A stretch of DNA of 64,000 nucleotides, from contig NZ_FBYC01000004.1 in NCBI RefSeq assembly GCF_001517585.1, positions 682,001 to 746,000 on the forward strand, in the 5' to 3' direction. Both the position numbers and the translations under genes were made by a program. The notes below the pieces were generated by a model that saw only the letters and a list, made by a program, of their open reading frames with translations, was not told where the DNA came from and made no database searches. The DNA comes from Roseibaca calidilacus (lineage in GTDB: Bacteria > Pseudomonadota > Alphaproteobacteria > Rhodobacterales > Rhodobacteraceae). Shown one piece after another: positions 1 to 32,871 of the stretch (position 1 is the first letter of the stretch; each line of letters opens with the position of its first letter).

Positions 1-1
1 A

Positions 2-862
2 GACCCTTTTGCGCTGCGGAGAGCGGCGTTGGGGGTTATTCGGTTGGTGTTGGTAAATGATGTCAGGTTCTCACTCCTAAATATCCTTGCCTCGTCTCAT
101 TTCCAAATTTGGCTTCGCCTGTATGACACCGGGTACGCTGACCGCGTCAGACGAGTAGCCATAATCGCAAGAGAGATGGGTATCCCTTTCGACGACGCTT
201 GGGAGAAACTCAAAGAGATGTCTGAGGCGGCTGAAGATGCTTCAGAGTTTCTGTCAGAGTTTTCCGCAAAAGATGCAGACCTTATCGAAGAAGTTAAGAT
301 TGAAGTGGGAGACCTTGATCTAGGCCAAACAGATGCAGCGTTGACACTCCCATTTTTCCACGACCGCCTCAAGGTCTACCTGCGCGATCAGGGTATCCGG
401 CATGACGTGATCGACGCGTGCTTGGCGATGCCGGGCAATGACGACCTGACGCTTCTGGTCAAACGCGCCGAGGCGCTGTCGGACCTGCTGAAAACCGATG
501 ATGGCGAGAACCTGTTGCAGGGCTTCAAGCGCGCCAACAACATTCTGACGCAGGCAGAGGAAAAGGACGGGGTGGAATACAGCTTTGGTCCCGATCCGAA
601 ACTGGCGGACACCGACGCGGAACACGCATTGTTCACCGCACTCGACCAAGCCGAAGCCGCGATCACCCCCGCCATGCAGGCCGAGGATTTCGCCGCCGCC
701 ATGCAGGCCATGGCGGGCCTGCGCGCGCCGATTGATGCGTTTTTCGATGCCGTGCAGATCAATGCCGAAAACCAGATCCTGCGTCGCAACCGTCTGAACC
801 TACTGCACCGCATTCGCGAGATTTGCTTGCAGGTGGCGGACCTGACAAAGGTCAGCGGCTGA
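2..862 (+). CDS. glyS: Glycyl-tRNA synthetase beta subunit, 3' part (5' end outside window)
   Basis: Attaches glycine to tRNA-Gly together with the alpha subunit GlyQ, as an alpha2beta2 class II enzyme in the cytoplasm. The frame is open from base 2 and begins DPFALRRAALGVIRLVL, the hallmark of the GlyS core, so the gene enters from the left. The C-terminal part carries FFHDRLKVYLRDQGIRHD and the conserved anticodon-binding tail RRNRLNLLHRIREIC. Residues encoded at about 60-345 are an acidic block in clearly AT-richer DNA with different codon use (see separate entry). The gene ends 110 bp from the convergent crtC. Family identification is secure; only the upstream boundary is unknown. Confidence 0.95.
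   Translation, partial: DPFALRRAALGVIRLVLVNDVRFSLLNILASSHFQIWLRLYDTGYADRVRRVAIIAREMGIPFDDAWEKLKEMSEAAEDASEFLSEFSAKDADLIEEVKIEVGDLDLGQTDAALTLPFFHDRLKVYLRDQGIRHDVIDACLAMPGNDDLTLLVKRAEALSDLLKTDDGENLLQGFKRANNILTQAEEKDGVEYSFGPDPKLADTDAEHALFTALDQAEAAITPAMQAEDFAAAMQAMAGLRAPIDAFFDAVQINAENQILRRNRLNLLHRIREICLQVADLTKVSG
60..345 (+). other. AT-rich in-frame block inside glyS
   Basis: By eye this stretch is near 50 percent GC, while flanking coding DNA is near 65 percent. It uses codons such as AAA, GAA, TTT, CTA and ATA that are rare in neighbouring genes. It stays in frame and encodes a mostly helical, acidic segment with runs such as EMSEAAEDASEFLSEFSAKD. It lies between the conserved GVIRLVL core and the FFHDRLKVYLRDQG motif, where the E. 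coli protein has only a short linker. A similar block occurs in hisS. Its origin is unknown: an acquired insert, gene conversion, or a relaxed variable region are all possible. Confidence 0.6.
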
Positions 863-29450: not shown

Positions 29451-31082
29451 ATGGCCAAGACCAAAGGCCCCAGCCGCCCCAAGGCGCAGACCCCGAAAGG
29501 GTTTCGTGATTACTTTGGCGCAGAGGTAAGCGCGCGCCGCGCCATGCTGGACAAGATCGCAGAGGTCTACCACCGCTACGGGTTCGACGCGCTGGAAACA
29601 TCCGCCGTGGAAACGGTCGAGGCGTTGGGCAAATTCCTGCCCGATGTGGACCGCCCGAATGAGGGCGTCTTCGCGTGGCAAGAAGATGACGACTGGCTGG
29701 CGCTGCGCTACGATCTGACCGCACCCTTGGCCCGCGTGGCCGCGCAATACCGGCAGGATTTGCCCACGCCCTATCGCCGCTTCGCCATGGGGCCAGTGTG
29801 GCGCAATGAGAAGCCGGGGCCAGGGCGGTTTCGGCAGTTTTACCAATGCGATGCGGATACGGTCGGGGCGGCGTCCGTCGCGGCCGATGCAGAGATTTGC
29901 GCCATGCTGGCGGATGCGCTGGAAGCCGTGGGGATCGCGCGCGGGGATTATGTGATCCGGGTGAATAACCGGAAGGTGTTGAATGGCGTGATGGAGGTTG
30001 CGGGGATCCTGGACCCGGCTGACCCGTCGCGGTTTGAGGCCGAGCGCGGGATCGTCCTGCGCGCCATCGACAAGCTGGACCGCTTGGGCGTGGACGGCGT
30101 GCGCGCGCTTCTTGGTGAAGGCCGAAAGGATGAGAGCGGGGATTTCACGAAGGGGGCGGGGCTGGATGAGACGAAAATTGCTCATATTCTCAAATTCGCG
30201 GAAGCGTCAAAAGCGGTCGACACGCTAATAAATGACTTGGAAGGAGCTATTGAAGAAGTCTTTGATGCGAGTTTTGAGGATTTGAGTTCGTTTCAAAAAG
30301 CAGTCCGAGTTTCTTACGAAAAGCGCAACGAAAAGCCTCAAACTGGCAATCATGCGCGCAGTATAGCTGCCCTTGATGTGTTGGGAGAATTGATTGAAAC
30401 TTCGGAAGAGGGTCAATCTGGATTGGACGAACTAGCCCAAATTGTTGACCTTCTTTACGCCCAAGGCTACGGTCCCGACCGCATCGTCATCGACCCTTCT
30501 GTCGTCCGCGGCCTTGGCTACTATACCGGCCCGGTCTTTGAGGCGGAGTTGACCTTTGAAATCCTCGACGAAAAGGGCCGTCCGCGTCAGTTTGGCTCTG
30601 TCGCGGGGGGCGGGCGCTATGATGATCTGGTCAAGCGCTTCACCGGCCAGACGGTGCCCGCGACGGGTGTCAGCATCGGGGTGGACCGGTTGCTGGCGGC
30701 ACTCGACGCCAAGGGCAAGGGGCCGGGCCGCGCCCAAGGCCCGGTGGTTGTGACCGTGATGGACCGCACCAAAATGGCCGATTACATGGCGCTGGTGAAC
30801 GAGTTGCGCCAAGCGGGCATCCGCGCAGAGATGTATCTGGGCAACCCAAAGAATTTCGGCAACCAGTTGAAATACGCCGATAAACGCGAAAGCCCTGTCG
30901 CCATCATCATGGGCGAGGACGAGGCCGCGCGCGGCGTGGTGCAGGTGAAAGACCTGATCCTTGGCGCGCAGATCGCCGCCGACGCCTCTGTCGAGGAATG
31001 GAAATCGCAGACCCAACAGGTCGAGGTGCCGCGCGCCGACATGGTCGCCACCGTGCGCGAGATATTGGCCCGCTACGCATGA
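29451..31082 (+). CDS. hisS: Histidyl-tRNA synthetase
   Basis: A class II synthetase that charges tRNA-His. The 543-residue protein has motif 2 in [20 protein letters not shown] near residue 125, the histidine-binding [14 protein letters not shown], and motif 3 [13 protein letters not shown]. The C-terminal anticodon domain contains [16 protein letters not shown]. It is longer than usual because about 95 residues between [18 protein letters not shown] and [15 protein letters not shown] come from an AT-rich block (separate entry). ATG 29451 follows CAGGAG. It overlaps hisZ by four bases, forming a hisS-hisZ-hisG operon. Confidence 0.95.
30170..30465 (+). other. AT-rich in-frame block inside hisS
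   Basis: By eye the GC content falls from about 65 percent to well under 50 percent, with codons such as CTA, AAA, TTT, GAA and ATA. The change begins sharply after ...GCGGGGCTGGATGAG and ends at ...CTTTACGCCCAAGGCTAC. The encoded segment is acidic and probably helical ([20 protein letters not shown], later [19 protein letters not shown]). It occupies the variable insertion domain of bacterial HisRS, between catalytic-core elements that are normally GC-rich and conserved. Reading frame and flanking motifs are intact. It parallels the block in glyS. Confidence 0.65.
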
Positions 31083-32155
31083 GCCGGGCCGAGGATATCG
31101 CCACGGGCCTTTTGGGCCAGATGCTGGATGCGGGTGCCGTGCGCGTGACGCCGGATATTCTGCAACCGGCGGGCACGCTTTTGGACCTGTATGGCGAGGA
31201 TATCCGCGCGCGGGCCTATGTCACCCATGACCCGAGCTTGGGCGAGATGATGCTGCGCCCTGATTTTACCGTGCCGGTGGTGCAGGCGCATATGGCAGGC
31301 GGCGCGGAACCCGCACGCTATGCCTATGCGGGGCCGGTGTTTCGCAAGCAATCCAGCCTGCGCGCGCGGGAATATCTGCAAGTGGGCTACGAGGTGTTCG
31401 CGCGCGATATGGAAGCCGCGGCCGATGCAGAGGTGTTCGCGCTGTTCGCCCGCCTGCTGGAAGGCTACGGCTTGCGCCCCGTGACCGGCGATATGGGCTT
31501 GCTGACTGCTGCGGTGGCGGGGCTGTCCACCACCGAGCGGCGGCGCGCGGCGCTTTTGCGCCATGTCTGGCGGCCCAAACGCTTCCGCGCGCTGCTGGAG
31601 CGGATGCGCGGGCAAGGGCCGTTGGCCGATGACCGCGCTGCCTTGGTGGACCGTTTGCGCGCGGCCCCCGTGGAGGCGTTGATGGCAGAGGCTGGCCCCC
31701 ATCTGGGCCTGCGCGCAGAGGATGAGATCGCCGCGCGCGTGGCCGCCCTTCTGGAGGATGCCGGTGCCGCCCCCATCCCGGACGAGCAAGCGCAGGCATT
31801 GGAAGCGCTGTTGCAGCTTGCCGCCCCCGCGCGCGCCGCGCTGGCGCAGATGCGCGCCATGGGCTGGGCGGCGCTGGCCCCGGCGCTGGACCGTCTGGAG
31901 GCGCGGCTGGATGCCTTGGATGCGCAGGGTATTGACACCGAAACCCTGCCGTTCGAGGCTAGTTTCGGGCGCACCAATATGGAATATTACGACGGTTTCG
32001 TCTTTGGCTTTATTGCGCGCGACGACCTGCCGCCCGTGGCCACCGGCGGGCGCTATGATGCGCTGACGGCCGTGTTGGGGCAGGGGCGTGCCATTCCGGC
32101 CGTGGGCGGTGTGATCCGGCCCGACCTGCTGGCAGGGTTGGAGGGCGCGGCATGA
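31079..32155 (+). CDS. hisZ: ATP phosphoribosyltransferase regulatory subunit
   Basis: A HisRS-like protein without synthetase activity that binds short-form HisG and confers histidine feedback regulation on the first step of histidine synthesis. The 358-residue protein has a class II core ([36 protein letters not shown] in part) but lacks an anticodon-binding domain, which separates it from HisS. It overlaps hisS and hisG by ATGA at each end. A long Ala/Arg/Leu-rich middle region is typical of Rhodobacterales. Confidence 0.92.
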
Positions 32156-32871
32156 CCTTGAAACTTGGCGTGCCCTCGAAGGGCCGTTTGATGGAACAGA
32201 GCTTTGATTGGTTCACCGAGCGTGGCCTGACGCTGGCGCGCACCGGGTCGGCGCGCGAATATGCCGGTGCGGTCGAGGGCGTGGACGGCGTGGAACTGGT
32301 GCTTCTGTCGGCCAGTGAAATCCCGCGCGAATTGGCGGCGGGGCGGATTCATCTGGGCGTGACCGGCTCTGACCTTGTGCGCGAGTCGCTGCCGGATTGG
32401 GCCGCCTCGGTCGCGGAACTGGCGCCTATGGGGTTCGGCAATGCCGACCTGATCCTGGCCGTGCCGGTCACATGGGTGGATGTCGAGACGCTGGACGATC
32501 TGGATGCCGCGGCGGCGGCATTCCGCGCGCGCCACGGGTTCCGCTTGCGGATTGCCACCAAGTATCATCGTTTGGTGCGCGAACATCTGCGCGCGCATGG
32601 CGTGGCCGATTATCAACTTGTCGACAGCCAAGGTGCCACCGAGGGCACGATCCGCAACCTGACCGCCGAAGCTGTGGCCGATATCACCACGACAGGCGAA
32701 ACCCTGCGCGCCAATCACCTGAAGATTTTGCAAGGCGCGCCCATTCACCGTTCGCAAGCCACGTTGTTTGCGTCGCGCATCGCACTCTGGGGGCCAGCAT
32801 CAGCGGCGCTGAAACAATTGGCGCACAAGCTGGATCTGGCTTTGCCAGACGGGTTTTTGCCCAATAGGTAA
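32152..32871 (+). CDS. hisG: ATP phosphoribosyltransferase, short form
   Basis: Condenses ATP and PRPP, the committed step of histidine biosynthesis. It has 239 residues, the short form that needs HisZ, which is encoded just upstream. Family motifs are KLGVPSKGRLMEQS, ELVLLSASEIPRELAAGRIH and LTAEAVADITTTGETLRAN. The ATG overlaps the hisZ stop. About 50 bp of non-coding DNA separates it from the next operon, and no terminator is evident, so read-through is possible. Confidence 0.95.
   Translation: MTLKLGVPSKGRLMEQSFDWFTERGLTLARTGSAREYAGAVEGVDGVELVLLSASEIPRELAAGRIHLGVTGSDLVRESLPDWAASVAELAPMGFGNADLILAVPVTWVDVETLDDLDAAAAAFRARHGFRLRIATKYHRLVREHLRAHGVADYQLVDSQGATEGTIRNLTAEAVADITTTGETLRANHLKILQGAPIHRSQATLFASRIALWGPASAALKQLAHKLDLALPDGFLPNR

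Follow-up and report, generated by a model that had tools for sequence, protein, structure and literature searches.

An AT-rich block in hisS of Roseibaca calidilacus may be one allele of an exchangeable cassette in tRNA synthetase genes

In a 64,000-nucleotide stretch of the Roseibaca calidilacus genome (contig NZ_FBYC01000004.1, positions 682,001 to 746,000; hereafter the window), the gene hisS, encoding histidyl-tRNA synthetase (HisRS), contained an AT-rich block of 101 codons in its insertion domain. Sequence comparison with related Rhodobacteraceae gave a pattern that we read as the mutual replacement of old cassette families, each under constraint. Our interpretation, held with middling confidence, is that the block represents one of many alleles of a swappable surface cassette, which essential synthetase genes exchange by recombination and which an antagonist most likely keeps diverse. 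The features of hisS, all on the forward strand, were as follows.

29451..31082, + strand: hisS, histidine--tRNA ligase, 543 aa; coding to 31079 plus stop, frame intact.
30138..30164, + strand: conserved 5' anchor GDFTKGAGL, site of the composition change (alignment).
30165..30467, + strand: AT-rich variable cassette, 101 codons, in the insertion domain of HisRS (GC content, alignments and AlphaFold model).
30459..30524, + strand: conserved 3' anchor, from AQGYGPDRI to RGLGYY (alignment).

The product passed the NCBIfam model TIGR00442 (hisS) with 381.9 bits against a cut-off of 286.75, the Pfam tRNA-synt_His and anticodon domains were also present, and a search of this genome (E ≤ 0.001) returned a single hisS match. 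The GC content of the stretch 30165–30467 was approximately 44%, with a GC content at third codon positions (GC3) of 0.33–0.38, compared with approximately 65% GC in the flanks. In 150-base windows within 30150–30449 the GC content was 0.43–0.47, against 0.55–0.73 in hisS windows clear of the block, and the composition broke at GDFTKGAGL (ending at 30164) and AQGYGPDRI (beginning at 30459). An earlier note on this DNA, made from the letters alone, had described sharp compositional borders and an intact frame, and had staked its proposal on a break visible in sliding windows; both descriptions held. The protein was also longer than usual, as that note had stated: 127 aa separated the GR and RGLGYY anchors, approximately 47 aa more than the 80 aa of the short form, and the extra part corresponded to roughly 30207–30347 in the alignment. 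In an 864-kb sample of the genome that included the window, hisS ranked first by interior GC drop among the 564 genes long enough for this test. It also ranked first of 655 open reading frames (ORFs) by a combined GC/GC3 score, in a background list that contains some mis-framed ORFs; synthetase genes outside the sample were retrieved by targeted search. The block is more than a chance fluctuation.

Among Rhodobacteraceae, the sequences sorted the HisRS region into a short form (78–80 aa between the anchors) and a long cassette (97–135 aa). The comparison was based on one genome per species, and the nearest named hisS records belonged to Roseibaca, Roseinatronobacter and Natronohydrobacter. Within the genus of the window, 28 of 30 loci gave the whole region (two did not); 19 were long (97–135 aa) and nine short (78–80 aa), and most species had a cassette sequence of their own despite nearly identical flanks. 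The region was recovered from 77 of 80 named relatives (three lacked it in full) and was measurable in 71, with 32 of the 71 long; these relatives were ranked by similarity to the window and are therefore not a neutral sample. Sixty genera were picked from approximately the 150 best of 285 matches. Fifty-nine were readable and one was not; 15 of the 59 were long and the other 44 measured 79–80 aa, five of them by eye. The block is thus not a universal part of the family's HisRS, a possibility that the earlier note had allowed for. Counts of GC omitted loci that failed the anchor pattern (six of the 77 named loci and five of the 59 in the genus sample, the latter short by eye and included as short in the 15 of 59). 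The threshold for a long form was at least 102 aa in the clustering, host-GC3 and state-correlation analyses and at least 95 aa in the tree, transfer and GC3-offset analyses. One locus was intermediate, with 89 aa between the anchors (L090). The two states were scattered within genera: Limimaricola soesokkakensis and Rhodovulum adriaticum were long, L. variabilis and R. bhavnagarense short. On a FastTree phylogeny of the flanks, for which relatives of the window were over-sampled, the two members of a sister pair differed in state in 15 of 47 cases. In several Rhodobacteraceae (Pseudorhodobacter, Cereibacter, Rhodobacter, Paracoccus and Ruegeria), hisS was located on records classed as plasmids, ranging from 22 kb to 2.2 Mb.

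Three relatives had flanks that were 94–95% identical in amino acid sequence and differed at 25–27% of fourfold sites, a measure that saturates, as does the synonymous distance (dS); their cassettes (96–102 aa) were only 25–34% identical. In the pair L001/L003, the flanks shared 94.7% of amino acids and the cassettes 25%. Conversely, L007 and L009 carried identical cassettes between flanks of 96% DNA identity, and hypermutation in place was ruled out by this sharing. The 55 distinct hisS cassettes of at least 102 aa formed 22 clusters, one of 24 members, one of seven and 16 of a single member, and the two largest crossed genus borders. There are many allele families, with sharing between species, as a recognition polymorphism driven by an antagonist would show. 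The cassette of L005 was matched in three of 394 family genomes, each of a different genus, at 45–60% identity. Within families, the ratio of non-synonymous to synonymous change (omega) was 0.07 (L058/L062) and 0.06 (L002/L015, dS approximately 2), indicating strong purifying selection. Although seven of nine long-cassette pairs had no finite dS, non-synonymous differences were still far below synonymous ones. The cassettes of L016 and L094 belonged to one family that diverged further downstream, up to the YGPDRI motif, which suggests a wider exchanged segment.

Distinct long hisS cassettes had a GC3 on average 0.271 below that of their flanks, and 57 of 59 were lower by more than 0.1; the two exceptions (L042 and L110) formed one GC-rich family. 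In short forms the mean difference was 0.054, with 18 of 83 lower by more than 0.1. Cassette GC3 rose with host GC3 (slope 0.86, r 0.59), and on this basis recent import of AT-rich DNA was rejected as the sole cause of the cassettes. Judged by composition, the cassettes appear adapted to hosts of different GC content, yet retain an AT offset. In this they may resemble accessory more than core genes. A syntenic comparison with one relative covered 258 kb and 159 testable ortholog pairs, among which hisS ranked third by local drop in identity. Of the 25 most locally variable pairs, it alone had a very AT-rich variable segment (GC3 0.32, compared with 0.75 for the rest); the other 24 segments had a GC3 of 0.60–0.93. 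AT-richness as a general property of variable segments was accordingly discarded.

The earlier note had mentioned the same kind of block in a second synthetase gene of the window without giving its location. This is likely glyS, which encodes the beta subunit of glycyl-tRNA synthetase (GlyRS) and lies at the left edge:

1..862, + strand: 3' part of glyS, GlyRS beta subunit (whole gene C4:680580-682862); DALR domain, profile match.
50..352, + strand: AT-rich variable glyS cassette, 101 codons; GC 0.48, GC3 0.47, flanks GC3 0.72–0.78.

Positions 29–862 carried the DALR domain and belong to a 760-aa subunit, approximately 62% of whose gene lies left of the window. In 13 members of the genus, the middle region of glyS was 47–115 aa long with a GC3 of 0.43–0.55 and was mostly unrelated between species; for one of the 13, L231, the pattern applied gave a short measurement. 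Of 32 genomes sampled across the family, 31 had a glyS match, and 29 loci were examined: eight had the native form, mostly GC-matched, at least six had unrelated sequence with a GC3 approximately 0.1–0.3 below the flanks, and the rest were short or unmeasured. Relative to the flanks, GC3 was −0.171 in variant (n = 32) and −0.025 in canonical forms (n = 10), as divided by a rough text pattern. The flanks of L223 and L224 were 96% identical and their cassettes 22%, while omega in the cassette pair L223/L231 was 0.10.

The survey of the genome's synthetase genes for low-GC in-frame blocks that the note had proposed yielded two more. In valS an AT-rich block occupied approximately codons 650–735 of the open frame (GC3 0.34), and ileS had a similar but weaker one. 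Both valS and glyS outscored all 655 sampled ORFs except hisS; ileS would rank seventh and cysS 27th. No comparable block was found in the eleven genes glyQ, proS, serS, thrS, aspS, alaS, pheS, leuS (covered over 803 codons), metG, lysS and argS of the same genome, with pheT, tyrS, trpS and gltX outside the survey; aspS (rank 49) and metG (rank 62) had mild dips. Among relatives, the variable region measured 28–33 or 73–106 aa in valS and 38 or 51–63 aa in ileS, with outgroups at 26–30 aa. In valS, GC3 relative to the flanks was −0.268 in long (n = 9, all by more than 0.1) and −0.040 in canonical forms (n = 13); in ileS the values were −0.150 (n = 11, seven by more than 0.1) and −0.025 (n = 11). 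An omega of 0.14 was obtained for the ileS cassette pair L331/L335. Segment replacement, as seen at the sequence level, is strong in hisS and valS; glyS looks alike and ileS is weaker. The valyl- and isoleucyl-tRNA synthetases (ValRS and IleRS) belong to class I, so class II enzymes are not the only ones affected. The earlier note, which had spoken of class II genes, was right about a shared process, and this extends over four synthetase genes, hisS, glyS, valS and ileS. Two other low-GC regions were observed. The C-terminal part of cysS (L288, − strand; codons approximately 350–477) was low in GC and GC3 (0.44–0.54), and a 411-aa ORF without a Pfam match (L188:53-1288), which may be an accessory gene, contained a low-GC block (GC3 0.42).

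The clearest sign of movement came from valS. In the draft genomes G020 and G011 (loci L295 and L299), an 86-aa cassette was identical in protein and 99% identical in DNA, while the flanks were 83% identical. Fourfold differences numbered one in 41 sites in the cassette and 114 in 274 in the flanks, and mismatches resumed three codons before and six codons after the cassette. From these sequences, a recent transfer of the cassette is likely.

In the AlphaFold model of the window's HisRS, the cassette formed extra helices (residues 252–272 and 278–292) among the conserved helices of the insertion domain, and a HisRS with a cassette of a different family was likewise predicted to have extra helices there. 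Confidence was lower in the inserted part, with a mean predicted local distance difference test score (pLDDT) of 53–75 for the block in the first model and 57–77 in the second. The window model was modest overall (mean pLDDT 69), yet its top structure matches were HisRS. The earlier note had suggested repeated capture of small acidic helical modules. Two models of moderate confidence bear out the helices, and the window's block is acidic (21 D/E against 9 K/R in 101 residues), but long hisS cassettes as a group do not fit that description (D+E 13.6%, K+R 10.7%).

In Rhodobacteraceae, four sites (the insertion domain of HisRS, the middle part of GlyRS beta, a ValRS loop region and the beginning of the editing insertion of IleRS) hold either a conserved short or native form or one of many dissimilar longer cassettes. 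We propose that homologous recombination in the conserved flanks moves the cassettes. Rare types might then be favoured, if an antagonist recognises these surfaces; such an antagonist, which would bind or exploit tRNA synthetases, could be a protein of a phage or a toxin that competitors deliver. A change of cassette would allow escape while aminoacylation continues. Recognition of this kind would produce what was found: many families across species, constrained internally and occasionally exchanged. More tentatively, and with somewhat less confidence than for the reading just given, we suggest a hidden recognition polymorphism, in which the cassettes of HisRS, GlyRS beta, ValRS and IleRS serve mainly to differ and so to foil the proteins by which phages or competitors seize or poison synthetases.

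Several results weigh against this proposal. Half of the 18 AT-shifted short forms came from the window's own genus, where each of the nine short alleles was shifted, by 0.12–0.27; in that genus, then, short forms show the offset as well as long ones. Moreover, a constant AT offset has no explanation once GC3 tracks the host. The state is partly inherited, since the flank tree required at least 36 changes between long and short, fewer than any of 200 shuffles (46.3 ± 2.8, minimum 37). Positive selection within cassette families was not evident from the dN/dS pairs, so pressure, if any, acts between families. The states of hisS, valS and ileS were not detectably correlated (Fisher p 0.30–0.62, 15–16 genomes per comparison), and there is thus no hint of a single common antagonist. 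The transfer in valS was a single event between drafts in many contigs, for which a co-assembly error is possible, and no equally recent transfer was present in 13 hisS, six glyS (all native form) and three ileS pairs. Searches of the phage, plasmid and viral-contig collections gave no credible homologue of the window's hisS cassette, the sole phage matches being six Gordonia phage tape-measure proteins at E approximately 9. The glyS and valS cassettes had no homologue in phages, the insertion domains of 40 named hisS loci (the window's excluded) matched no PHROGs or PADLOC family, and no candidate antagonist was found in these collections.

The strongest alternative, though an unlikely one, is a tolerated surface insert, where nearly any helical sequence is accepted and recombination and drift act without adaptive meaning. 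It would fit the lower predicted confidence of the inserted parts, the freely varying cassette lengths and the lack of a known partner, and most within-family pairs were too diverged synonymously for selection to be measured well. The measurable pairs were under purifying selection, however, the short form was conserved in 44 of 59 genera, and few other genes were similar. Rather less probable is a docking module, by which each cassette binds a cell component (a complex partner, the membrane or a regulator) and lineages swap partners. Purifying selection in the measurable pairs agrees with it, and PMC4893482 gives a precedent for one domain, CAAD, entering several synthetases. Here, many dissimilar cassettes were found instead of one domain, without similarity between genes. 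Pfam searches of nine cassettes (the window's and eight others) gave none above the cut-off (best E 0.077) and no CAAD, so these nine do not make CAAD-type synthetases.

We consider it very improbable that AT-rich coding sequence was captured from an outside source, whether phage, plasmid or AT-rich bacterium, and kept by chance. The low GC3 of nearly all distinct long hisS cassettes would agree with this, but no donor was found in the collections searched, cassette GC3 tracks that of the host, and the position in each gene is always the same. The earlier note had called for comparing its two blocks with each other and with phage and plasmid proteins; besides the negative phage and plasmid searches, cassettes of different genes showed no similarity at E below 0.01 among 133 compared. 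A whole-protein scan of viral contigs returned nothing for glyS and valS, and for HisRS one protein, of the short form. The HisRS of L373 (IMG/VR IMGVR_UViG_3300025759_000462) was 64% identical to that of the window and, with a GC3 of 0.73, lay in a 7.5-kb stretch at 46% GC; it may be a piece of host DNA or a gene that was captured.

Two further ideas of the earlier note were not supported and seem highly improbable. A selfish coding insert or small mobile element aimed at synthetase genes would account for blocks that are in frame, recurrent and present in several genes. The Rickettsia palindromic element is of this type, with related palindromic copies in several genes, but the sampled part of the genome contained no such copies, nor did the hisS or glyS block recur in it; repeats around the hisS block were short and weak only, and the genes shared no cassette sequence. 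A control element in the mRNA, acting by pausing or as an internal promoter, would suit an AT-rich block upstream of the next operon genes, ORFs 31079–32155 directly after hisS and 32152–32871 after that, which we take to be hisZ and hisG; the blocks also in glyS, valS and ileS, the constraint on the protein and the absence of an AT-rich block in genera with the GC-matched short form speak against it.

Aminoacyl-tRNA synthetases are generally counted among conserved core enzymes and are used as phylogenetic markers and drug targets, and in the open-access literature searched we found no account of such cassettes. If cassettes do replace one another, constraint inside but not between families would mean that some agent in the cell tells these enzymes apart, and its identification would reveal new strategies of phages or competitors. 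A true recognition polymorphism would point to an undiscovered class of weapons that target synthetases. As a caution, variable synthetase segments are unsuited to species trees.

Phage proteins that act on host synthetases exist, as phage T4 modifies the ValRS of its host, although we know of no link between that modification and variable cassettes. Specificity cassettes of restriction enzymes, like other genes under frequency-dependent polymorphism, likewise fall into deeply diverged allele families and are exchanged by way of conserved flanks; those genes are accessory, whereas the synthetases are essential housekeeping enzymes without a known recognition role of that kind. HisRS, whose conserved flanks enclose a variable region longer than the 70 aa required, has the form of the segmentally variable genes described in PMC387263. 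These are conserved genes in which a region of 70 aa or more varies, and the examples named there include synthetases (ProRS) and the recognition region of DNA methyltransferases. The variability of synthetases is ascribed there to tRNA recognition. In our case, by contrast, dissimilar AT-rich cassettes swap between close relatives and their families cross genera. The cyanobacterial CAAD, according to PMC4893482, is a conserved domain for membrane targeting that has so far been found in class I synthetases, ValRS and IleRS among them. The two cases are alike in that several synthetases repeatedly and specifically recruited an extra domain; they differ in that CAAD is one domain in class I, whereas here many dissimilar cassettes occur in both class I and class II enzymes.
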